This document shows, in pieces, positions 22,157 through 35,917 of a stretch of 38,784 bases of DNA. The notes beneath the pieces were generated by a model. That model did not search any database and was not told the DNA's origin. It worked only from the letters and a program-made list of their open reading frames with translations. This stretch comes from Oscillospiraceae bacterium (GTDB taxonomy: Bacteria; Bacillota; Clostridia; Oscillospirales; CAG-272). The stretch lies in contig SVSJ01000024.1 in NCBI GenBank assembly GCA_015064355.1, forward strand, positions 1 through 38,784, given 5' to 3'. The position numbers were made by a program, and so were the translations under genes. The first letter of the stretch is position 1. The number at the start of each line of letters is the position of its first letter.

Positions 22157-24286
22157 ATGGAATTCTATACTCAGAACGGTCGCGTTCGTCCTGTGCGTTT
22201 GTGTGATGAAACAAGAAAATTCGCACACGATTCTCTAAATAGAAAATACGGTCTCGATACTCTTCGAGTTGACAGCGTAGAACTTGATAATTTAGCAGGG
22301 CTTGACGAGATGTCTCTCCTTGAGAAATACGATGCCGCAATTCTTAATATCGCGAAAAATGCCCCAATACGCATTTGCGACGGAGAGAAACTAAGTGGTG
22401 CAGCAACTCTCGGGCTTGCTGTTCGCCACTGCGTACCTGCTACCTTTGGCGGCAATCCTATTTTTTTAGGAATCAGCCATCTTACTGTGGACTTTGAAAC
22501 AGTGGTGACAAAAGGTATTAACTACATAAAAGAAAAGGCAGAAAAGTACTACCGTATTCACAAGGCCACTGACCGAGAAGAGTTTTCAAAAAGCACTCTT
22601 AACTGCATCGCTGCCTTTGAAATCTGGCACAAGAGATACCTTGACGCTTTGGATGACAAGCCCGAATACAAGGCAAATTACGAGAACCTGAAGAGGGTTC
22701 CCTTTGAGCCTGCCACCAATTTTTACGAGGCAGTTCAGAGCATTTGGTTTACCTTTGCCTTTATCCGACTCTGCGGAAACTGGCCGGGAATCGGAAGAAT
22801 CGACTATTTACTGGGCGATTATCTGAAAAAAGATCTGTCCAACGGCACCATTACACTCGACGAAGCTCGAGAGATTTTGGCGCACTTTTTCATCAAGGGA
22901 TGTGAGTGGGTAAACGGTCAGTACATTGGCAGCGGAGATGCGCAGCATTATCAGAACCTTGTTATTTCGGGAATTGACGAAGACGGATGTGACGTTACAA
23001 ATGAGGTAACTTATCTCGTCCTCGACATTCTTGAGGAGCTTGGCATCAGCGATTTTCCTACTACGGTCAGAGTGAATCCGAATACTGACGAGAAGCTACT
23101 AAGACGGGTTGCCGAGGTTATGCGATACGGCGGCGGTATGCTTGCGATCTACAGCGAGGACGTTGTAATTGAATCCCTTGTGAAAGACGGATACACCCTA
23201 TCCGAGGCGAGAAAATTCGCCAACGACGGCTGCTGGGAGACTCAGGTTCCCGGTAAGACGTTCTTCATATACTCCCCGTTCGATGCTGTTCAGTTTCTGC
23301 AGCAGATGACCTTCGGTGCCTACAACAAGAAGCCAGAGTTTAAGTCATTCGACGAGCTTTACGACAAGTTTATCAGAGATCTTCGGACAACGGTCAACAA
23401 TTTTTACGAAGATAAGAAGCGTTTTTCCGTTCGTGACGATAGCGTGCCGGGCGGCTGGAGATGGACTCAACAATCCGCTTGCACTGTTGTTTCACTTTTT
23501 GAAGAAGGATGCATCGAAAAGGGATACTCCTATCAGGACGGCGGTCCCGTTTACAACATCAATGCGTTACACATTGGCGGACTTGCAGACACGGTAAATA
23601 GCCTTTACGCCATAAAGAAGCTGGTATTTGACGACGGGCTTGTGACTCTTGAACGTCTCTTTGAGATACTGAAAAACAACTGGGAGGGCGAGGAGGTTCT
23701 CAGACAGATCGCCTTGAACAGATACACCTACTACGGAAACGACAACGATGAGGTCGATTTGCTGTGTGCACGTATCCTTTCCGATTTCGCTGATATTTGC
23801 ACGTCTTATTACGGCAAATGCGGATACAAGCTTTCAGCAGGTGTCAGCACATTCGGCCGTCAGCTTGAGTGGTCTCCGCTTCGTTTGGCATCTCCTCACG
23901 GCAGACGCATTGGTGAAGTTCTTGCGGCAAATTGCTCCCCTACACCGAATACCGACAAAGAGGGTGCCACTGCTATTATTCGCTCCTACTGCAAGGCGGA
24001 TCATACGAAGATTCCCACAGGGGCAGCGCTGGATATCAAGCTTCTCCCTTCAAGCGTTGAGGGGGAGGAAGGACTCCAGGCACTTGTGGCGCTTATCCGC
24101 GGTTTTGTGGCTCTGGGCGGATTCTTTATGCAGCCCGACGTGGTTGACGCAAGTGTTCTTAAGTGTGCGCAAGAGCATCCGGAAGATTATCAAACCCTAT
24201 CAGTTCGTGTTTCAGGCTGGAATGCGCGTTTTATCACACTCGATAAAGAATGGCAGGATATGGTGATAGCACAAAATGAGCACTGA
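22157..24286 (+). CDS. Glycyl radical enzyme, substrate unassigned
   Basis: A 709-aa oxygen-sensitive glycyl radical enzyme. The thiyl-radical loop NDGCWETQ supplies Cys359 and, two residues on, Glu361, the general base seen in the diol dehydratase/lyase branch (G-C-x-E) rather than the Cys-Cys pair of pyruvate formate-lyase. The radical glycine is Gly687 in VRVSGWNARF. The usual Tyr after this Gly is Trp here. At 709 aa it is shorter than CutC, HypD or glycerol dehydratase types (about 780-850 aa). I cannot assign dehydration, decarboxylation or C-S/C-N cleavage. GGGAGG precedes the ATG, and the stop overlaps the activase start by 11 bases. No clear promoter was found between the tRNA terminator and the gene. 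Confidence 0.88.
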   Translation: MEFYTQNGRVRPVRLCDETRKFAHDSLNRKYGLDTLRVDSVELDNLAGLDEMSLLEKYDAAILNIAKNAPIRICDGEKLSGAATLGLAVRHCVPATFGGNPIFLGISHLTVDFETVVTKGINYIKEKAEKYYRIHKATDREEFSKSTLNCIAAFEIWHKRYLDALDDKPEYKANYENLKRVPFEPATNFYEAVQSIWFTFAFIRLCGNWPGIGRIDYLLGDYLKKDLSNGTITLDEAREILAHFFIKGCEWVNGQYIGSGDAQHYQNLVISGIDEDGCDVTNEVTYLVLDILEELGISDFPTTVRVNPNTDEKLLRRVAEVMRYGGGMLAIYSEDVVIESLVKDGYTLSEARKFANDGCWETQVPGKTFFIYSPFDAVQFLQQMTFGAYNKKPEFKSFDELYDKFIRDLRTTVNNFYEDKKRFSVRDDSVPGGWRWTQQSACTVVSLFEEGCIEKGYSYQDGGPVYNINALHIGGLADTVNSLYAIKKLVFDDGLVTLERLFEILKNNWEGEEVLRQIALNRYTYYGNDNDEVDLLCARILSDFADICTSYYGKCGYKLSAGVSTFGRQLEWSPLRLASPHGRRIGEVLAANCSPTPNTDKEGATAIIRSYCKADHTKIPTGAALDIKLLPSSVEGEEGLQALVALIRGFVALGGFFMQPDVVDASVLKCAQEHPEDYQTLSVRVSGWNARFITLDKEWQDMVIAQNEH

Positions 24287-25160
24287 TTGTAAATTTAAAG
24301 TAAGTGAGATACAGCGATTCTGTATGCACGACGGTCCCGGGATACGCACTACTGTGTTTTTCAAGGGTTGCCCTCTGAAATGCCCCTGGTGCCACAATCC
24401 CGAAAACCGAAAGATGCAGGCGGAGATGCTGTTCTATCAAAGCAAATGCATTGGATGCGGCTCTTGCACTTCATCTTGCAGCCGGTCTGCAATTCTCGCA
24501 GATGATACGAAGAGGATCGACCGTGAAAAATGCTCGGTATGCGGTATCTGCGGTGAAGTATGCCCTACAGGTGCGCTAAAGTTGTGTGGCGCGGAAATGA
24601 CGATCGAAGAGATCATCATCGAAGTCGAAAAAGATCGGGCGTTTTATGGGGAGCTTGGCGGAATCACCCTCTCCGGTGGCGAGCCTTTTGCTCAAGGGGA
24701 TGGAATTATTACCTTGCTTGAGGAATGCAAGAAATGTGGTATATCCACCGCTGTTGAGACCTGCGGCTATGCAGATCCCGAACTGATCAAGCGTGCCCTT
24801 CCCTATGTTGATTTATTCCTTTGGGATGTTAAGGACACAGACGATCAGAGGCACATCGAATACGTTGGTGCGTCAAACAAGCTTTGTCTTGAGAATCTGA
24901 TGATGATAAATGAGCTTGGAGCAAGAATAGAGCTTCGATGCATTCTCGTAAATGGTGTAAACACGGATTTGGATCACTATCGTTCCGTGGCTGAAATTGC
25001 ATCAAAGATAAACAATTTAGCAGCGGTGCGGGTGATTCCCTACCACGCCTACGGCGGCTGCAAAGCGGTGTTTATCGGCGGCGAGGACAACGGTCGAGTA
25101 GACTGGATACCAACAGACGAGCAGGTTAATGAGTTTGACAAGATCATCTCACAAATTTAA
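24276..25160 (+). CDS. Glycyl radical enzyme activase (radical SAM)
   Basis: A 294-aa activating enzyme that uses S-adenosylmethionine and a 4Fe-4S cluster to place the radical on the glycine of the preceding enzyme. The radical SAM motif is GCPLKCPWC (Cys32, Cys36, Cys39). An insert with two ferredoxin-like motifs, CIGCGSCTSSC and CSVCGICGEVCPTGA, follows; this insert is typical of activases for non-PFL glycyl radical enzymes. TLSGGEPFAQ is the SAM-binding GGE motif. The start overlaps the enzyme gene by 11 bases, so the two are translationally coupled. The next gene in the ancestral order was probably greA, now displaced by an insertion. Confidence 0.93.
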   Translation: MSTDCKFKVSEIQRFCMHDGPGIRTTVFFKGCPLKCPWCHNPENRKMQAEMLFYQSKCIGCGSCTSSCSRSAILADDTKRIDREKCSVCGICGEVCPTGALKLCGAEMTIEEIIIEVEKDRAFYGELGGITLSGGEPFAQGDGIITLLEECKKCGISTAVETCGYADPELIKRALPYVDLFLWDVKDTDDQRHIEYVGASNKLCLENLMMINELGARIELRCILVNGVNTDLDHYRSVAEIASKINNLAAVRVIPYHAYGGCKAVFIGGEDNGRVDWIPTDEQVNEFDKIISQI

Positions 25161-28054: not shown

Positions 28055-28083
28055 TTGAAATATTATGAATTTTATGTTATAAT
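28055..28083 (+). promoter_or_regulatory. Promoter of the small membrane protein
   Basis: TTGAAA and TATAAT with a 17-base spacer. Confidence 0.75.
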
Positions 28084-28114: not shown

Positions 28115-28342
28115 ATGAAAATATCGTCTGTTGTTCTGTTTGTCATCATGGTGATTATTTTGGCTGTTGGTGTGTGTGCTGACACTATAGTGATTGGTCC
28201 TGAGCCGACAGTTGAACCGTCCCTTCCACTTGGTCTCAGTCTTGATGCCCTTGTATTTTTTGTCTCAATGATCTGCACGTCCATTGTTGCTCTTCTTGCT
28301 CTCGTCGTAATTACTGCAAGAATTAAGAAAAACCGTAAATAG
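28115..28342 (+). CDS. Small two-helix membrane protein
   Basis: A 75-aa protein. Residues 4-22 are hydrophobic and end in VGVCAD, like a signal peptide. A short Pro-rich stretch (GPEPTVEPSLPLG) follows. Residues 44-66 form a membrane helix, and the C-terminus is basic (ARIKKNRK), so the loop would face outside. No family is recognised. GGAGG 6 bases before the ATG, a clear promoter and a clear terminator make it a real gene despite its size. It lies just upstream of the five-gene EEP cluster but is transcribed separately. Confidence 0.75.
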   Translation: MKISSVVLFVIMVIILAVGVCADTIVIGPEPTVEPSLPLGLSLDALVFFVSMICTSIVALLALVVITARIKKNRK

Positions 28343-28350
28343 CCACCATT

Positions 28351-28378
28351 GCGTATGAGTAATTCATACGCTTTTTTT
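28351..28378 (+). terminator. Terminator of the small membrane protein gene
   Basis: GCGTATGA-GTAAT-TCATACGC followed by seven T. Confidence 0.9.
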
Positions 28379-28431: not shown

Positions 28432-28449
28432 AAGATGTCATCTTGACAT
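28432..28449 (+). promoter_or_regulatory. Palindromic operator candidate over the -35 box
   Basis: Two overlapping perfect inverted repeats are present: AAGATG-T-CATCTT (28432-28444) and ATGTCA-TCT-TGACAT (28435-28449). They cover the -35 box of the EEP cluster promoter, where a bound repressor would block RNA polymerase. The regulator is unknown. Confidence 0.5.
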
Positions 28450-28471
28450 TTGTCCTTATTGATAATATAAT
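28443..28471 (+). promoter_or_regulatory. Perfect consensus promoter of the EEP cluster
   Basis: TTGACA (28443-28448) and TATAAT (28466-28471) with a 17-base spacer. No other strong promoter or terminator is seen inside the cluster, so this probably drives all five genes. Confidence 0.88.
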
Positions 28472-28505
28472 TATTTTACAGATTATTTATCATCTTGGGG
28501 GATCT

Positions 28506-29741
28506 ATGAAGCGTTATATTATTTTTCTTTTTGCATTGATATTTTGCCTGTCCTGTGCTGTATCCTGCGGTAATAACACAAACGATGCTGATTCTAAGCC
28601 TGAAATCAAAATGTTACCCGGACAGGACGTTAAGGTTATCAGCATAAATCTACTTGTTGGCGACCTTTCAACACCTACTTTTAAGTTAAACGGACGAGAC
28701 GAGATAATGACTCCTCTCCTTCTTTCCTATGATGCTGACTCGATCGGAGTTCAGGAGTCTGTAGGCTGGGTCATTCCTCTTGACAATCAGCTTGAAGGAT
28801 ATGGCCGGGCCGGTTTTACCGTGCAAGGGGTTAGAGAACCTCGCAGTTCACACAGCGGCAATTACATCTACTACAAGAAGGACAAATACAATCTGATTGA
28901 AGATGGCATAATCTGGCTCAGCGACAGTCCTGATATGGTTGACGAAGGCTCCCGTACCTGCTGTTGGGCTATTCTTGAAAACAAGGAGACGGGCTTCAGA
29001 TACGTTCACATGAACACTCACCTGTTCCCCACCGACAGCAAGGTCAACGCAGCAGAAATGCCTGTTGTAAGAGATGCTATGGCACGGTTCATTGAGCTCG
29101 GATTCCCTGTTTTTACTACGGGAGATTTCAACACATCTCAAGGTTCTGACAACTATCAGATAATGCTGGAAAATGAGCTTATTAACGACAGCAAGGTAAT
29201 TGCAAAAGAATCAATGAACATGGGTACGTACAACGGAATGCGCGAGCAAGATCTTGAGGGCAAGAACCCAATCGACTATTGCTTTGTTTCACATGAGGTT
29301 ATGTCCGTTCAGAAATATGAGGTTATTAACACTAATGTAAACGGTGTGTTTGCCTCTGATCACAACGGTGTATTCGTTCATGCCACTGTAGGCTCCCTGC
29401 CCGACCAGTTCGGGTTGGAACACAATATTTCCGCTGAGGGGATTACGATCGAAGTTGCAAAAGCCCGTCCATCCATTCTTGATGTGACATTCACTCAGGC
29501 TACCGACTGCCATCTAATCGAGTCATACGAAGTTTCTGCTTATGATAAAAATGGTAACAAGGCTTATTCGACAAGTGTTCCCTCTTGCAGTGCACGAAAA
29601 GTAGTTCCCGATAAACTTGAGTGCACTTTGATTCGCCTCTCACCTGATACGGAATACACAATAATTGTTACGCCAATTTCAATAATTGATGTTAAGGGCA
29701 GCCCAACTCAAATTGATGCGAAAACCCCCGCACGCAATTAA
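28506..29741 (+). CDS. EEP-family phosphoesterase lipoprotein, paralog 1
   Basis: A 411-aa secreted lipoprotein (signal 1-20, lipidated Cys21 before GNN). Residues 42-295 form an endonuclease/exonuclease/phosphatase (DNase I-like) domain with all expected residues: VISINL (Asn47), SIGVQES (Glu84), NTHL (His172), TTGDFN (Asp207, Asn209), NPIDYCF (Asp257) and ASDHNGVF (Asp285, His286). Family members cut phosphodiesters or phosphomonoesters in nucleic acids, sphingomyelin or inositol phosphates; the substrate here is unknown. Residues 308-411 form a beta-rich Ig/FN3-like tail. The GGGGG ribosome site supports the ATG; an earlier in-frame TTG is the -35 box. First of five tandem paralogs, most like paralog 2. 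Confidence 0.88.
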   Translation: MKRYIIFLFALIFCLSCAVSCGNNTNDADSKPEIKMLPGQDVKVISINLLVGDLSTPTFKLNGRDEIMTPLLLSYDADSIGVQESVGWVIPLDNQLEGYGRAGFTVQGVREPRSSHSGNYIYYKKDKYNLIEDGIIWLSDSPDMVDEGSRTCCWAILENKETGFRYVHMNTHLFPTDSKVNAAEMPVVRDAMARFIELGFPVFTTGDFNTSQGSDNYQIMLENELINDSKVIAKESMNMGTYNGMREQDLEGKNPIDYCFVSHEVMSVQKYEVINTNVNGVFASDHNGVFVHATVGSLPDQFGLEHNISAEGITIEVAKARPSILDVTFTQATDCHLIESYEVSAYDKNGNKAYSTSVPSCSARKVVPDKLECTLIRLSPDTEYTIIVTPISIIDVKGSPTQIDAKTPARN

Positions 29742-29779
29742 TAATTCTTAAATGTATGAAATGATTTATGGGAGAAACT

Positions 29780-31018
29780 ATGAAGCGTTATTTTCTGTTG
29801 ATCTTGTCGGTTCTGATATGTATTTCCTGCTTTGTTTCCTGTGGTGACACTTCGACTCAAGCACCGGAAGAACCACCTGAAATAAGGATTCTTCCCGGAC
29901 AGGATGTTTCTGTACTCAGCATGAATCTGCTCACTTGTGTACCTGATGATGTTACACGCTCCCTCGACGGACGTGATGCCGTTATGCCGGGATTGCTCCT
30001 TTCTTATGATGTTGATTCTATAGGCGTCCAGGAATCATACGGGTGGGTAGAAATTCTCGACGAGAAGCTCGTAGGCTACGGCAGGACCGGATACTGTGCA
30101 AATGGCAGCACTGAATCTTATCCTTGGTGTGCTGGAAATTATATCTACTACAAGGAAGATAAATACAAGGTCATTGATTCAGGAATAATCTGGTTAAACG
30201 ATACCCCCGACCTTATTGAAGACTATGCCCAGAACTGCTCTTGGGCTATTCTCGAAAACAAGGAAACCGGGTTCAGATACGTGCATATGAACGTGCATCT
30301 TATTGCCGATGACCGGCAGATCAATGCACAACAAATGCCGATTATGCGTGACGCTATGGCTCGTTTTATCAAGCTTGGATTCCCCGTTTTCACAACAGGC
30401 GACTTCAATGCTTCTCAAGGTTCAGAAAATTATCTGATAATGATGAAAGAAGAATCTCTCCATGACAGTAAGCTTATAGCAAAAGAGTCGATGAATATGG
30501 GCACGTATCACGGAATGAGCACGAGAGATCTTACAGGTCACAATCCCATTGACTACTGTTTCGTTTCTCACGAGGTCATGGAAGTTAACAAGTACGAAGT
30601 TGTTGACACTTGTGTTAACGGAAAATTCGCAACCGACCACAACGGTGTTTACGTTCACGCCACAGTGGATTCCCTCCCCGACCAATACGCTCTGACTCCG
30701 GAGCTGTCAACAGACGGTATAACGATCAGTGTCAACCAGGTGCGTCCATATGTTGCTGAGCTAACGATAACTCAAGCGACTGACTGTTTCCACGTGAATT
30801 CTTACATGATTACTGCAACTGACGAGAACGGAAATATTGTCGAGTCCCGATACCTACCCTCACGAAATACCCACAAGAACATTCCCAAAGAGCTTTATTT
30901 CACTTTAAGCGGACTTTCTCCCGAGACAAAGTACGCGGTCAGAGTTTACCCGGCAAGTGTTATCGGCACTGTTGATGACTATGTGGAAATTGAGCTTGTC
31001 ACACCGGCACTTGATTAA
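29780..31018 (+). CDS. EEP-family phosphoesterase lipoprotein, paralog 2
   Basis: A 412-aa lipoprotein with the same plan as paralog 1: signal ending in CFVSC-GDT, an EEP domain and a C-terminal FN3-like tail. The catalytic set is complete (VLSMNLL, SIGVQES, MNVHL, TTGDFN, NPIDYCF, ATDHNGVY); the first motif has Met in place of Ile and the last has Thr in place of Ser. The RTCCW motif before the His strand is changed to QNCSW. The NMGTYHGM segment ahead of the Asp motif is shared with paralogs 1, 3 and (partly) 5. The second of two close ATGs is chosen because GGAGAA lies between them. It starts 38 bases after paralog 1. Confidence 0.88.
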   Translation: MKRYFLLILSVLICISCFVSCGDTSTQAPEEPPEIRILPGQDVSVLSMNLLTCVPDDVTRSLDGRDAVMPGLLLSYDVDSIGVQESYGWVEILDEKLVGYGRTGYCANGSTESYPWCAGNYIYYKEDKYKVIDSGIIWLNDTPDLIEDYAQNCSWAILENKETGFRYVHMNVHLIADDRQINAQQMPIMRDAMARFIKLGFPVFTTGDFNASQGSENYLIMMKEESLHDSKLIAKESMNMGTYHGMSTRDLTGHNPIDYCFVSHEVMEVNKYEVVDTCVNGKFATDHNGVYVHATVDSLPDQYALTPELSTDGITISVNQVRPYVAELTITQATDCFHVNSYMITATDENGNIVESRYLPSRNTHKNIPKELYFTLSGLSPETKYAVRVYPASVIGTVDDYVEIELVTPALD

Positions 31019-31040
31019 TGTTAGTAGAGGAAGATTAGAT

Positions 31041-32330
31041 ATGAAAAGATTGGTTTGTGTTTTACTTGCGATCATTGCCCTCTCCGGCAGTCTTATATTA
31101 TCCTCCTGCGGTAAAGATAACACAAACACTCCCGTTGCTACAGACGAGAGACAAAGCGAGCAGGTGGAGGGTGAGCCTGAAAAGGAAGTTGTAATGCTTC
31201 CCGCTGATGAGCTGAAAGTCGTCAGTATAAATGTTTATCTCAACAACCCCACTCCGAGAGCAAAAGGGCTGATAAGCATCATTCGAGATCTTGATCCCGA
31301 TTCTATTGGTGTCCAGGAGTTTATAGGTGGCTGGGTAGACGAATTCGACGGCAAAATGTCCGACTATGCTCATGCGGGATATGCCCACGATGCAAAAGAA
31401 GTTTCACGTTACGTTTATGCAAATTATATTTTCTACAAAAAAGACAAGTACGATCTTATAGACCACGGCATTCTTTGGCTTTCCGAGACTCCGTCTACCC
31501 CATCATCTCTCAACGGCAGTGATATTGCAATTGAGCGTCGTACTTGCTGTTGGGCGCTTCTCGAGAACAAAGAAACAGGCTTCCGTTACGTTCACGTAAA
31601 CTGCCACCTTGAGTCTGGCTCCGAGGAGGAAAGGCTCATCCAGGCTCCGATCGTCCGTGACCTTATCTTGCGCTTTGAGGCGCTTGGTTATCCTGTGTTT
31701 GCTACCGGTGACTATAATGCCCGTGAAGGAAGCGCGCCTTATGAGATCTTTGAAGCCGAAGACAAGATCGACGATCCAAAGTATATTGCCGAAGATACTA
31801 TGGATATGGGCACATACAACGGCTTCGGCGACTCTGACTACAAGAACAGCAAGCCCATTGACTTCTGCTTTGTTACCGGCGACAAGATGGCTGTTCATGA
31901 ATACAAAGTAGTTCCTACAGAATATGACGGTGAATATGTTTCTGACCACAATGCGGTATTTGTGAGAGCGACTGTTAATTCTCTGGAGAAGCAGACTGAT
32001 ATTCTTCCCGATTATTTGACTACTGACGGAATCACTTATGAGATCACAAGTGTCAGACCTTATGTAGCAGAGTTTACTTTTACCCAAGCTGATGATATTT
32101 TTCACACAGACACTTACAGAGTCTGGGCAGAAGATAAGGACGGCAACGAAGTTGTTGTCAGAACCATTCCCTCGAAGAATATTGACAAGAATTCTCCTGC
32201 AATTCTTACGTGCACTCTTGCAGGTCTCTCAGCAGATTCAGAGTACACTGTGTTCATTGCCCCGGCTACTATGACGGGTACTTATAATAACCGTATTTCA
32301 TTTACTGTAAAAACACCTGCAAACCAGTAA
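31041..32330 (+). CDS. EEP-family phosphoesterase lipoprotein, paralog 3
   Basis: A 429-aa lipoprotein (signal ending in LILSSC-GKD) with a long acidic linker (residues 30-55) before the EEP domain. Catalytic motifs are VVSINV, SIGVQEF, VNCHL, ATGDYN (Tyr in place of Phe), KPIDFCF and VSDHNAVF. RTCCW and MGTYNGF are present. The C-terminal 100 residues form the FN3-like tail (AEFTFTQADDIFHTDTYRV, ending FTVKTPANQ). It is more divergent than paralogs 1 and 2 and lies 22 bases after paralog 2. The start is the ATG behind AGAGGAAG; an upstream in-frame GTG inside paralog 2 is rejected. Confidence 0.88.
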   Translation: MKRLVCVLLAIIALSGSLILSSCGKDNTNTPVATDERQSEQVEGEPEKEVVMLPADELKVVSINVYLNNPTPRAKGLISIIRDLDPDSIGVQEFIGGWVDEFDGKMSDYAHAGYAHDAKEVSRYVYANYIFYKKDKYDLIDHGILWLSETPSTPSSLNGSDIAIERRTCCWALLENKETGFRYVHVNCHLESGSEEERLIQAPIVRDLILRFEALGYPVFATGDYNAREGSAPYEIFEAEDKIDDPKYIAEDTMDMGTYNGFGDSDYKNSKPIDFCFVTGDKMAVHEYKVVPTEYDGEYVSDHNAVFVRATVNSLEKQTDILPDYLTTDGITYEITSVRPYVAEFTFTQADDIFHTDTYRVWAEDKDGNEVVVRTIPSKNIDKNSPAILTCTLAGLSADSEYTVFIAPATMTGTYNNRISFTVKTPANQ

Positions 32331-32370
32331 ACTCGTGCATCTATTTTAGCGAAAGGCATGTTTGGTTCTG

Positions 32371-33660
32371 ATGAAAAGAATAATTACAATTATTCTCGCG
32401 CTTTTATCGGTGACTGCTTCTTTTATTGGATGCGGCAGTCAACCGAGCAATAATATAAGTGTGGATGAGACGTCCGGTGACATCGAAACGAGCCATGAGG
32501 CTGTAAACACACCAAATGAAGTTACAATGCTTCCCGCTGCCGAGATCCGCATAATGAGCATGAATATGTCATACGATGTGGAGCATATGCGTGAAAGAAG
32601 TGATATTGCAATTCCGCTGATTTTGTCGTACTCTCCCGACTCCATGGGGACACAGGAAAACGGCGGTCGCCCTGATTGGCCGTATTATCTGGAGAAGGGA
32701 CTGCCTGACTACAAATTTGTCGGACGTTTCAGTAATGGCAACCTCACTTGCAGCGATCATTATATGGTTGACAGATATCTTGGATACTATGTCTACAACA
32801 GCGCAAATTACATTTACTACAACGCAAAGAAATACAACTGCCTTGACTGGGATACTATTTGGCTGTCTGAGACACCGCATTTCAAGTCTCAGTACAAAGG
32901 TGGACTTCTCCGCACCTGCACCTGGGCAATATTTGAAAATAAGGAAAACGGGTTCAGATACGCTCACGTTAACTGCCACCTAGGATACGACACAGACGAG
33001 CTTAATATGTTTCAGATGAAGCTGGTTCGAGGTGTTGCCGAAAGGTTTGCAAATCTTGGGCTCCCCGTATTTATCACAGGCGACTTCAATACACGCGAAG
33101 GCGGCTCAAGCTATCAGATTATGACTTCGTCTCCGATTATCTTCGATTCAAAGTTTCTGGCGGAGTCAAAGAAAAATGCTCAGGGCACACCTATTGACTT
33201 TATATTTGTCTCTGATGCTATAGAGTCTGTTCATGAATACGAAGTGATCTATACAGACATTGACGGCTATGAGCTGTCTGACCACAACTGGGTATTTGCA
33301 AGAGCTACTGTGTCTTCCCTTCCGGATTCCTATAAAACTCCTGCGGATGTATCAAATTCCGGCATTAGTGTGATCGAATCTGACGCAAGAGTGTACGCCT
33401 GCGACCTGAAGTTCACTCAAGCCGTGGACATATATTTATTAGACTCATATTACATAGAACTTTTTGACAACACAGGCAAGCTTATACTTGAGAAAAAGAT
33501 TCCCACACGTCACCTTGATGCTGATACTGCAAAAGTGAAAAACTGTTCCCTGCACCCCCTTTCGCCGAATACAGAATATACCGTGAAGATATATGCGAAA
33601 AATCTTATCGGAACTATGTCAGAGCCTGTGGTGTATAGTTTCACTACCGCGGTAGACTGA
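32371..33660 (+). CDS. EEP-family phosphoesterase lipoprotein, paralog 4 (shortened loop)
   Basis: A 429-aa lipoprotein (signal ending in SFIGC-GSQ). Catalytic motifs are IMSMNMS, SMGTQENGG, VNCHLG, ITGDFN, TPIDFIF and LSDHNWVF. It lacks the MGTY-NG loop and about 15 residues before the Asp motif that the other four have, and carries a longer aromatic insert after SNGNLTC (HYMVDRYLGYYVYNSANY). The substrate pocket therefore probably differs. The start is uncertain: the ATG at 32371 is 14 bases from AAAGG, whereas an in-frame TTG at 32362 is 5 bases from it and would add three residues. Closest relative is paralog 5. Confidence 0.86.
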   Translation: MKRIITIILALLSVTASFIGCGSQPSNNISVDETSGDIETSHEAVNTPNEVTMLPAAEIRIMSMNMSYDVEHMRERSDIAIPLILSYSPDSMGTQENGGRPDWPYYLEKGLPDYKFVGRFSNGNLTCSDHYMVDRYLGYYVYNSANYIYYNAKKYNCLDWDTIWLSETPHFKSQYKGGLLRTCTWAIFENKENGFRYAHVNCHLGYDTDELNMFQMKLVRGVAERFANLGLPVFITGDFNTREGGSSYQIMTSSPIIFDSKFLAESKKNAQGTPIDFIFVSDAIESVHEYEVIYTDIDGYELSDHNWVFARATVSSLPDSYKTPADVSNSGISVIESDARVYACDLKFTQAVDIYLLDSYYIELFDNTGKLILEKKIPTRHLDADTAKVKNCSLHPLSPNTEYTVKIYAKNLIGTMSEPVVYSFTTAVD

Positions 33661-33684
33661 GTTAATTAACCTTTGGAGAAGATT

Positions 33685-34944
33685 ATGAATAAGCTTATTT
33701 TGTCGGTTATTGCTGCGATCATAATGTGTTGCGTTCTCCTGTCCTGCGGCAGTGAGAATTTGCCGGCTGAAACAGATATAGTAACCGCGCCTGTGGCTGA
33801 GCCTGCAGCGATCCCCGGGCAGGACATTCGTATCGTTAGCATAAACGTGGCTTATGATATTCAGAATATGAAAAAGCGCGGGGATCTTATGGTTCCGTTG
33901 CTTCTGTCATACTCGCCTGATTCAATCGGGACACAGGAGTGCGGCGGATATACCGACTGGGTTGACATATTCAGAGAGGGACTTTCTGGCTACGAGAGAG
34001 TTGGCAGGGTCTCAAACGGAGCACTCGAAACATCCGATCACTACAGCGGCAACTACATATACTACAATGCAGAAAAGTTTGAGTGCGTTGACTGGCAAAC
34101 CATTTGGGTTACAACCTCTCCTTACGGGATTTCCTCGTATAAAGATGCAATATTCCGCACCTGCACCTGGGCGGTTCTTCGTGATAAATCAACCGGTTTC
34201 AAATACGTTCACATCAACACACACCTGGCATTCGAGAATGATGAGATCAATGAGTTTCAGACTACTATGATCCGTGATCTTGCAATGCGGTTTGAAAAGT
34301 TAGGAGTACCTGTGTTTATAACAGGTGACTTCAACTCATCTGAAGGAAGCACCAGCTACAACATTATGACTCGGAGGAAAGTTATCTCCGACTCAAAGTA
34401 TCTTGCTGAGAAAACAATGTCAGCTGGTACATTCAGAGGATGGGATGATCGAGATCTCTCGGGTGGCTCACCTATAGATTTCTGTTTTGTCACAGGAGAG
34501 AGAATGGATGTACAAGAATACAGCGTTATCGACACATTCGTTGATGGCATCGCGCTGTCGGATCATCAAGGTATTTTCGTTCACGCTGCCTGCCACGATC
34601 AAACAGATTCTGATACACAGGCAAAGAGTGTTTCAACAGATGGAGTCACTGTATCGGAAGTATCCCGCAGAAGCTATGTGTATGAGTTTTCCTTTACCCA
34701 GGCCTCAGATATAGAGCTGATACACAAGTATATTGCTGAATTGGTTGACAACAATGGAGAGGTTATTGCAACACGGACTATACTGTCGCGACAGCTTGAC
34801 AGTGACCCACCCGGGGTACTATACTGCACTTTCTTCGCTCTCGTTCCCGGGAAGAAATACAATGTACGGATCTATGCTGTGGCTCTTGACGGTACTTATT
34901 CGGATCCCTTCACTTTTGAGTTTGTGTCAAAAGAATTAGAATAA
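33685..34944 (+). CDS. EEP-family phosphoesterase lipoprotein, paralog 5
   Basis: A 419-aa lipoprotein with a classic lipobox (VLLSC-GSE). EEP motifs are complete: IVSINVAYD, SIGTQECGG, INTHLAF, ITGDFN, SPIDFCF and LSDHQGIF. It shares the SYSPDSxGTQExGG and DW motifs with paralog 4 but keeps the GTFRGW loop that paralog 4 has lost. The tail is the FN3-like domain (FSFTQASDIELIHKYIAELV). TTGGAGAAG precedes the ATG; the in-frame TTG within it is not the start. It starts 24 bases after paralog 4 and is followed by the cluster's terminator. Confidence 0.88.
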   Translation: MNKLILSVIAAIIMCCVLLSCGSENLPAETDIVTAPVAEPAAIPGQDIRIVSINVAYDIQNMKKRGDLMVPLLLSYSPDSIGTQECGGYTDWVDIFREGLSGYERVGRVSNGALETSDHYSGNYIYYNAEKFECVDWQTIWVTTSPYGISSYKDAIFRTCTWAVLRDKSTGFKYVHINTHLAFENDEINEFQTTMIRDLAMRFEKLGVPVFITGDFNSSEGSTSYNIMTRRKVISDSKYLAEKTMSAGTFRGWDDRDLSGGSPIDFCFVTGERMDVQEYSVIDTFVDGIALSDHQGIFVHAACHDQTDSDTQAKSVSTDGVTVSEVSRRSYVYEFSFTQASDIELIHKYIAELVDNNGEVIATRTILSRQLDSDPPGVLYCTFFALVPGKKYNVRIYAVALDGTYSDPFTFEFVSKELE

Positions 34945-34948
34945 AAAC

Positions 34949-34985
34949 AACAGCCATACCGGTTTGGTAAGGCTGTTTTCTTTTA
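34949..34985. terminator. Bidirectional terminator closing the EEP cluster
   Basis: AACAGCC-A-TACC / GGTA-A-GGCTGTT stem followed by TTTTC on the plus strand; the A-rich run before it serves the convergent ECF gene. Confidence 0.8.
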
Positions 34986-35513
34986 ATTGATTCCTTCACG
35001 GGAATTCAGCTTTATAAGAAGTCTTGACAACGGGTAAACGAGAAGGCCCATTCCAATGTTGCCAATTCCGTGAAGCACATCGAAATAAAATCCAGCGGCT
35101 ATCCACTTTAGAGTAGTCGGGAAGTCATATTCGAACATCAATGCTTGAGCCGGGGCGTATAGGACTCCGAAGGAAAGACCAAACAGTCCGCAGACCAGGG
35201 GATACACGATCATGGCAACTTTTGGCGGCATATTCTTCGGAAGGATCATTGTCACCGCCCAAAGCACTGCCCAGACGTACAAATACGGTACCCACCAGGG
35301 CTGAAAGCCATAAAACGCGCCAAGTATAATAACGTAGATATATATGGGAATCAACGCATACTTTCTGTATGCAAGTGTGATTACCATAACAAGCATTCCA
35401 ACCGGATGTATGTTCGGCAAAGCTTCAAAGGCAATTTTCATAGCAAACAGCATTGCCCCAAACATGGCGAGAACTGCCATTCGCAGAATCTGCTTGTGAG
35501 ATTTCATAGGCAT
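34983..35513 (-). CDS. ECF transporter S component, probable cobalamin uptake
   Basis: A 176-aa membrane protein with about six hydrophobic helices, the size and profile of substrate-binding S components of energy-coupling-factor transporters. It reads AVLAMFGAMLFAMKIAFEAL at the first helix and ends LVYPLSRLLIKL. The shared ECF ATPase/T-component module is not in this window and must lie elsewhere. The start codon overlaps the lipoprotein gene's stop in a TGATG junction, so the two are coupled, and a cobalamin riboswitch stands upstream. Vitamin B12 or a precursor such as cobinamide is therefore the likely substrate, which is inference from context. Confidence 0.8.
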   Translation of the reverse strand: MPMKSHKQILRMAVLAMFGAMLFAMKIAFEALPNIHPVGMLVMVITLAYRKYALIPIYIYVIILGAFYGFQPWWVPYLYVWAVLWAVTMILPKNMPPKVAMIVYPLVCGLFGLSFGVLYAPAQALMFEYDFPTTLKWIAAGFYFDVLHGIGNIGMGLLVYPLSRLLIKLNSREGIN

Positions 35514-35917
35514 CAATAGACGGTGTAGGTAAGCTCGTAATGCTCGCCGTCCGCAATCTTTGTTCCGGATGCCCCGGACATGAGATACTCGCCCTCCTTG
35601 GATATTGCCCAGTATGAGCTATCAACGTTGAAGTCAGCAACCTCACCGTTCACGGCAGTAATTGTGTAACCGTATGTGTCGGTGTAGCCCTCAACCATAC
35701 CTGCTTCGATCAGAGCGTCAGCAAGATTTGTAGCCTTGGTGGTGATCTCACGCTCTGTGGTCTCGCCTGCTTTGTTTACAACGGCTACTGTGATTGTGAT
35801 CTCTTCTCCCAGCTTGTTCTCATCTTTGTCACCGCAGGCGACGAGAGAGAATGCCATAACCGCAATAAGCACGCAGAGGAAGAAGCTTTTTAGAATTATA
35901 AGATAATTTTTCTTCAT
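35513..35917 (-). CDS. DUF4430 (transcobalamin-like) lipoprotein
   Basis: A 134-aa lipoprotein (signal ending in FSLVAC-GDK). The mature part is a DUF4430 domain, the small beta-grasp-type module related to the C-terminal domain of transcobalamin. Visible marks are ATNLADALIEAGMVEG, YGYTITAVNGEVAD, SSYWAISKEGEYL and ADGEHYELTYTVY. It probably captures a corrinoid at the cell surface and hands it to the S component encoded next. AAGGAG precedes the ATG. Expression should be shut down by B12 through the riboswitch upstream. Confidence 0.88.
   Translation of the reverse strand: MKKNYLIILKSFFLCVLIAVMAFSLVACGDKDENKLGEEITITVAVVNKAGETTEREITTKATNLADALIEAGMVEGYTDTYGYTITAVNGEVADFNVDSSYWAISKEGEYLMSGASGTKIADGEHYELTYTVY

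Follow-up and report, generated by a model that had tools for sequence, protein, structure and literature searches.

Five tandem genes for predicted EEP-type phosphoesterase lipoproteins with FN3 tails in a draft genome of an Oscillospiraceae bacterium

The contig SVSJ01000024.1 of the Oscillospiraceae bacterium assembly GCA_015064355.1, of which 38,784 nucleotides were analysed (the window), carries on the plus strand at 28506-34944 five open reading frames in one direction, each predicted to encode an EEP-type phosphoesterase lipoprotein with a C-terminal FN3 domain. The locus raises the question which kind of enzyme is encoded there, what the shared tail contributes and why one genome keeps five copies in a row. 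Two results are new. Judged from sequence comparison, the tailed EEP proteins form one clade in the set examined, in which the catalytic core is kept while an Arg and a Glu are lost, and this type of FN3 domain appears to go with extracellular phosphoesterases of two unrelated folds. The genes were delineated as follows:

28506..29741, plus strand: gene 1, 411 aa, lipoprotein-type EEP protein (FN3 tail 29430-29732)
29780..31018, plus strand: gene 2, 412 aa, lipoprotein-type EEP protein (FN3 tail 30707-31009)
31041..32330, plus strand: gene 3, 429 aa, lipoprotein-type EEP protein (FN3 tail 32022-32321)
32371..33660, plus strand: gene 4, 429 aa, lipoprotein-type EEP protein (FN3 tail 33352-33651; long insertion in loop B, deletion in loop E)
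33685..34944, plus strand: gene 5, 419 aa, lipoprotein-type EEP protein (FN3 tail 34633-34935)

These lengths rest on the chosen ATG starts, and longer forms from upstream TTG, ATG or GTG codons are possible.

The catalytic domain PF03372 was recognised above the cut-off by hmmscan in four of the five proteins. Gene 2 remained just below it (23.6 compared with 24.5) and passed in the whole-genome search, in which its in-frame flanks were included (25.6). The profile and the core residues N48, E84, H172, D207, N209, D257, D285 and H286 (gene 1 numbering) together place the proteins in the EEP superfamily; these residues and Q83 are invariant in all five. The FN3/Ig signal lies under the Pfam cut-off in each single tail, and a profile of 16 tails gave a fibronectin match in the PDB (E 2.9e-14), which identifies the tails as FN3 domains. 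Neither PF00149 (calcineurin-like) nor the lamin tail domain (LTD) was matched by any of the five proteins in a Pfam scan, and an NCBIfam scan of the array proteins yielded nothing over the cut-off. Residues 307-401 of gene 3, which comprise linker and tail, weakly match a model of a CRISPR ring nuclease (E 0.001) as well as CRISPR-associated chains (E 0.01 to 0.04); all these matches were taken as chance. A link to phages was rejected, with no PHROGs match for the three of the five proteins scanned.

According to the initial annotation, all five proteins have a lipoprotein signal. A Cys in the signal peptide is invariant across the five and fits a simple lipobox pattern in genes 3, 4 and 5, whereas genes 1 and 2 fit the pattern only at an earlier Cys. 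In the related genomes G009, G020 and G021 (working handles), ten proteins with an N-terminus lack a Cys at the aligned lipobox position, and the protein of G021:C124 has a different Cys that could serve as lipobox Cys.

When compared with the PDB, a profile of the five window proteins matched 3mpr, 4c1r and 3g6s at E values of 4e-30 to 5e-31, 3l1w at 8e-19 and nocturnin at 4e-4; no sphingomyelinase or DNase I was present among the 14 chains found at 0.01. A wider profile was built from 18 tailed and 6 tail-less proteins, and the best 60 of 135 chains were listed for it. Within these 60, 3mpr, 4c1r and 3g6s were found at about 1e-52, 3l1w at 1e-35, nocturnin and 3teb at about 1e-11, CCR4-type enzymes at 1e-8, tyrosyl-DNA phosphodiesterases from 1e-6 and sphingomyelinase-c and beta-hemolysin at 1e-4 to 2e-3; DNase I and inositol phosphatase were not among them. 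By profile comparison, the EEP domain of the array lies near the 4c1r/3mpr/3g6s group and far from the sphingomyelinases. Cleavage of sphingolipids or inositol phosphates, as suggested in the initial annotation, is not favoured, given the matches to 3mpr, 4c1r and 3g6s and the lack of any sphingomyelinase at 0.01 with the window profile.

The expectation that all catalytic residues are kept holds for the core. In a comparison of 77 distinct near-complete EEP domains from the fetched loci (20 tailed and 57 tail-less, duplicates dropped), the eight core residues were kept in 19-20 of the 20 tailed and in 54-57 of the 57 tail-less domains. It fails at two further positions. The Arg in the GR of GRDDG is found in none of the tailed domains compared with 46 of the 57 tail-less ones, and the Glu in the GE before the FY strand in a single tailed domain (G009:C8, outside the window) compared again with 46 of 57. 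The lost Glu probably corresponds to Glu78 of DNase I, which pairs with the catalytic His. Five columns earlier, 75% of the tailed but 2% of the tail-less domains have an Arg, and the charge may have moved to this position. In a quick tree of the 77 catalytic domains, the 20 tailed domains make up one side of a branch (SH-like approximate likelihood ratio test, 99). Since they lie on one branch side, the loss of Arg and Glu may be one event, and Fisher values for this loss are not independent.

The distribution of the tail was followed with the profile of 16 tails (E 1e-5) in 395 family genomes; because scoring was limited to 6 or 12 candidates in each, the counts are lower bounds. At least 58 tail matches were obtained, in 30 of the 395 genomes. 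Their heads were EEP in 16 cases and calcineurin-like phosphoesterase in 40, two were fragments (a remnant in genome G005 and one at a contig end) and none was of another kind. The in-house calcineurin-like model had been built from six of the proteins found, and a Pfam scan of 44 tail proteins (the 40 calcineurin-like ones, three more by the in-house model and one EEP) provided an independent check. Metallophos was matched by 42 of these, Exo_endo_phos by one and Laminin_G_3 by 26, and at least one protein matched neither PF00149 nor PF03372 at 0.001. In 390 other genomes of the class, at least three further tail matches were found, with EEP heads (G607, G670) and a calcineurin-like head (G688). 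Rv0805 is the nearest solved kin of one calcineurin-like tail protein (3e-4), a match that gave no guidance.

Within the genus, the 34 tail matches comprise 16 EEP and 15 calcineurin-like heads, two fragments and one protein that was not classified (G016:C82). Among the 25 genomes, EEP heads occur in five (broken in one of them) and calcineurin-like heads in nine, and no genome was seen with both. The chance of finding no genome with both heads in 25 drafts is about 0.08, which is only suggestive. The window genome has nine PF00149 matches, and its five tail matches all belong to the array. Generic FN3 domains served as a control: of 40 places in the genus, 17 lay outside the tail set, 12 of them with loci, and 10 were scanned. 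Four of the ten proteins were GH43, three had a BNR-like match and the rest were of other kinds, among them a tyrosine phosphatase with an N-terminal FN3 domain; EEP or Metallophos was matched by none of the ten, in eight of which fn3 was found again at 0.001 and some of which are cut at the locus end. In a tree of the tails, a single group of EEP tails was not rejected (p = 0.62, approximately unbiased test), and the direction of exchange is not fixed by it.

Calcineurin-like tail genes also stand in tandem, in G008, G350, G376 and G434. At L128 (G434:C153) and L135 (G350:C68), four large calcineurin-like proteins each are encoded in tandem, three with a strong and one with a weak tail match; these arrays, from another genus, parallel that of the EEP genes. 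Single open reading frames with two units of calcineurin-like head and FN3 tail were observed at L126 (G008:C130, 1766-4351) and L130 (G429:C18, 296-4519). At L172 (G007:C81, 1279-2361), FN3 lies N-terminal to a tyrosine phosphatase domain (PF13350), which brings the phosphatase folds that occur with FN3 in this genus to three.

As to the number of copies, the initial annotation spoke of an expansion in a tandem array. The paralogs share 37-57% pairwise identity and the copies differ along their whole length, which rules out an assembly artefact of one gene, and the 16 tailed EEP proteins of the genus group together (97/97), which rules out unrelated families side by side; a true expansion is borne out on both counts. 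Between genes 1 and 2, the differences by codon position are 0.33, 0.21 and 0.61. Third positions differ most, as is typical of purifying selection. From these comparisons the five genes are regarded as old, constrained paralogs and not as a recent amplification. In the tree, genes 1 and 2 pair with a support of 100/99, gene 3 joins them weakly (77/65), and genes 4 and 5 branch successively (100/97, then 89/89) from the line leading to ten proteins of relatives. Of the two pairs seen initially, 1-2 is thus recovered, whereas genes 4 and 5, although closest to each other within the array (45.7%), are not strict sisters.

Most of the variation falls in loops: five loop stretches have mean pairwise identities of 0.07 (after N48), 0.22, 0.23, 0.21 and 0.31, compared to 0.73, 0.65, 0.80 and 0.66 in the NTHL, GDFN, PID and SDH blocks. 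One loop varies in length by up to 13 residues among the copies, and gene 4 is set apart by a long loop insertion and by a deletion in a different loop. From their position beside the catalytic motifs, the variable loops probably rim the pocket.

The intergenic gaps along the array are 38, 22, 40 and 24 bases. Three elements flank the genes:

28432..28444, no strand assigned: palindrome AAGATG-T-CATCTT, candidate operator by inference only, running into the -35 hexamer
28443..28471, plus strand: promoter TTGACA-17-TATAAT, 12/12 consensus positions
34949..34984, plus strand: intrinsic terminator, hairpin 34949-34977 (-15.5 kcal/mol) followed by a T-rich run

The reading frames, the gaps and both transcription signals confirm the five-gene tandem array with one promoter and one terminator that was described initially, and by this anatomy the five genes are judged to be one transcription unit. 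The hairpin 34949-34977 is absent from the list of a general scan for promoter and terminator sites. The promoter is perfect as claimed (12/12), but it is one of 119 perfect TTGACA-17-TATAAT sites in the genome (reversed-pattern control: 1) and is hence considered strong but ordinary, not a special feature. No second exact copy of the palindrome AAGATGNCATCTT was found in the window genome, and a role as a regulon site was rejected on account of this single occurrence. Just 5' of the array, a small membrane protein of 75 aa is encoded at 28115-28342 (plus strand), with its own near-perfect promoter at 28055-28083 and a terminator-like site at 28351-28371. Further upstream, at 22157-25160 (plus strand), the gene for a glycyl radical enzyme (PFL-like) precedes that for a radical SAM protein, which probably activates it.

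The window genome is a draft of 2.17 Mb in 57 contigs with a completeness of 79.86%. Neighbours of the array are GreA, citrate synthase, DUF4430, TrpR-like, methyltransferase and NrdR genes, the citrate synthase gene being located between GreA and the array. In G020 and G021, a tailed EEP gene pair is flanked as in the window: GreA (75% and 74% identical) lies 5' of it, and the genes for a membrane protein and a DUF4430 lipoprotein (61-68% identical) lie 3'. These two genes (window 34983-35917, minus strand) are kept beside the EEP genes in G020 and G021 and missing from the G005 locus. The membrane protein has no Pfam match; read from its sequence, it is a putative S component of an energy-coupling factor transporter. 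Of the loci compared, G005 has the most similar neighbours (GreA 84%, citrate synthase 84%, NrdR 97%), in the order GreA, citrate synthase, one broken tailed EEP gene, TrpR-like, methyltransferase and NrdR. Its single tailed EEP gene (G005:C25, L035, 4500-7000) is split into pieces separated by unrelated DNA, for which reason the tailed EEP proteins appear dispensable in G005.

Copy numbers at the same locus are thus five in the window, two in G020:C266, two in G021:C62 and one broken gene in G005. In G009, two tailed EEP genes lie in tandem beside EF-G, and there are two further genes. Overall, 5 of 25 genomes in the genus have tailed EEP proteins, one of them in broken form. No array of tailed EEP genes as long as the five of the window was seen elsewhere; two genes of G009, one of G020 and a tail fragment of G009 lie at contig ends, where longer arrays are possible. 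The arrangement as such is not unique to the window genome, since two-gene arrays of these proteins exist in G009, G020 and G021. Tail-less EEP genes form arrays of two or three in other Clostridia (three in L042, L054 and L073), at loci that were selected for clustered matches and hence give no estimate of frequency. At L042 (G077:C6, 6065-9854), three consecutive tail-less genes contain five EEP domains (two, two and one), a further EEP expansion within the order.

With regard to function, we tentatively favour surface-anchored phosphatases with diversified loops, which would attack phosphorylated glycans, or polymers like them, outside the cell and scavenge phosphate or sugar from these. 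The lipoprotein-type signal would direct export, and its Cys would anchor the proteins in the membrane, for which the case is stronger in genes 3-5. After the signal follow a short linker, the EEP head and, directly behind it, the FN3 domain, which may hold the catalytic head near the cell surface or the substrate. Metal-dependent hydrolysis would then release phosphate, or a phosphorylated sugar or alcohol, and the five copies, which differ in the loops round the pocket, could together cover several substrates. Phosphoglycans and sugar phosphates are preferred as substrates because of the nearest named enzyme (4c1r, deposited as mannosyl-6-phosphatase), the LamG domains that follow in two tailed EEP proteins outside the genus (L049, L076) and glycan-type neighbours at two of seven places in G009, G020 and G021, namely a pullulanase-like gene at G009:C82 and Gfo/Idh/MocA oxidoreductase and pectate-lyase-like genes at G021:C124. 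The copy number of the locus varies between species, as expected of niche-dependent scavenging.

Several points weigh against this assignment. The name mannosyl-6-phosphatase is the label given by the depositors of 4c1r, and the change of Arg and Glu may make the pocket chemistry differ from that of the 4c1r group. No glycan-type neighbour was seen at the other five of the seven places, where neighbours were only partly scanned, and the neighbours of the window array itself are not glycan genes. The tail profile may in part reflect shared FN3 descent rather than a shared ligand, and the genomes are drafts, many of them less than 90% complete. A further-reaching and doubtful idea is that the tail acts in gut Clostridia as a dedicated phosphoesterase adaptor that docks one kind of extracellular phosphorylated polymer, carried on swappable EEP and calcineurin-like heads kept apart by genome; the EEP head would have joined once, with the loss of Arg and Glu as a switch of substrate class, before the five-enzyme operon arose.

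Next after glycans in rank, since the same tail is found on calcineurin-like enzymes that resemble the ShfP surface radiation, is an unlikely alternative in which the proteins are surface polymer phosphodiesterases that cleave teichoic-acid-like or phospholipid-headgroup phosphodiesters, as proposed for ShfP and PhoD. Calcineurin-like enzymes bear the tail in 9 of 25 genomes within the genus and also in other genera, the available part of PMC11488536 tells of surface calcineurin-like phosphoesterases that have radiated and are fused to FN3, laminin G and further domains, and the loss of Arg and Glu could fit an altered substrate class. The catalytic fold, however, is not that of ShfP and PhoD, and membership of the calcineurin-like tail proteins in that radiation is at most suggested by their architecture. 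Glyphos_transf (PF04464) was moreover unmatched in the window genome (about 80% complete) and in five of seven relatives, for which reason the targets would mostly be polymers of other cells; the bacterium's own synthesis of poly-glycerolphosphate was rejected as a target on the lack of PF04464 in the window draft. Improbable, in our view, are secreted nucleases that feed on extracellular DNA or RNA. They would agree with the EEP superfamily and with the precedent of Shewanella ExeM, in which a lamin tail domain is combined with an EEP domain (PMC6085458, as far as available), but PDB matches that rank below the 4c1r group are no stronger than 1e-11, the best 60 of 135 chains do not include DNase I, the Glu lost in the tailed domains probably aligns with Glu78 of DNase I, and a sugar-unspecific nuclease would not need five paralogs with different loops.

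The five copies might also do one job and be kept for more enzyme, the loop differences being drift. A single promoter and same-locus copy numbers of 5, 2, 2 and one broken gene are compatible with such a dosage effect, which is nevertheless quite improbable for copies of 37-57% identity that retain the core and differ in loop length by up to 13 residues; the insertion and deletion peculiar to gene 4 also point to an old, diversified set. Sphingomyelinase or inositol-polyphosphate phosphatase activity has the same superfamily in its favour and is very improbable, given that sphingomyelinases are missing at 0.01 with the window profile and reach only 1e-4 to 2e-3 with the wider one, and that no inositol phosphatase is among its best 60 of 135 chains.

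With this analysis, a clade of tailed EEP proteins with an altered active-site loop can be named, and the FN3 type becomes a predictor of extracellular phosphoesterases of two folds. If the assignment is true, the array offers five natural loop variants on one scaffold as a set for mapping the substrate choice of EEP enzymes, and the shared tail makes the binding targets of such gut enzymes open to experiment. In the open-licence literature searched, no description of the two-fold FN3 type, the tailed EEP clade or the five-gene operon was found, and no functional paper on the 4c1r EEP group, including the available parts of PMC7562712 and PMC13339134.

Among known systems, the ShfP/PhoD radiation is one of the closest. 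In the available part of PMC11488536, surface calcineurin-like phosphoesterases (ShfP/YvnB, PhoD) are joined to FN3, laminin G and other domains, and the teichoate hydrolase PhoD has an N-terminal FN3 domain. The combination of an extracellular phosphoesterase with FN3, LamG and adhesion domains, as far as described there, is shared by the calcineurin-like tail proteins. The radiation has the calcineurin-like fold, whereas the window proteins have the unrelated EEP fold, and the main text of PMC11488536 does not contain the words endonuclease, exonuclease, EEP or DNase I. A precedent for one domain on both folds is given by the LTD-phosphoesterases such as ExeM: according to the available part of PMC6085458, LTD occurs with both synaptojanin-type (EEP) and calcineurin-like enzymes. 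These proteins carry LTD, while those of the window carry FN3 instead and have no LTD match.

By sequence, the closest catalytic domains are those of 4c1r (mannosyl-6-phosphatase by the depositors' name), 3mpr, 3g6s and 3l1w. In alignments, 4c1r and 3g6s show a GRDDG...GE stretch that the window proteins lack. The solved chains of the 4c1r group have 257-298 residues and no match extends into the window tail, and the window proteins are encoded five in tandem. The two-gene arrays of tailed EEP genes in the Clostridia metagenome-assembled genomes RUG11111, RUG12901 and, from goat rumen, RGIG3705 (taken as G009, G020 and G021) differ from the window array in having two genes instead of five and no Cys at the aligned lipobox position. 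They encode the same kind of protein, and those of RUG12901 and RGIG3705 sit at the same locus as the window array.

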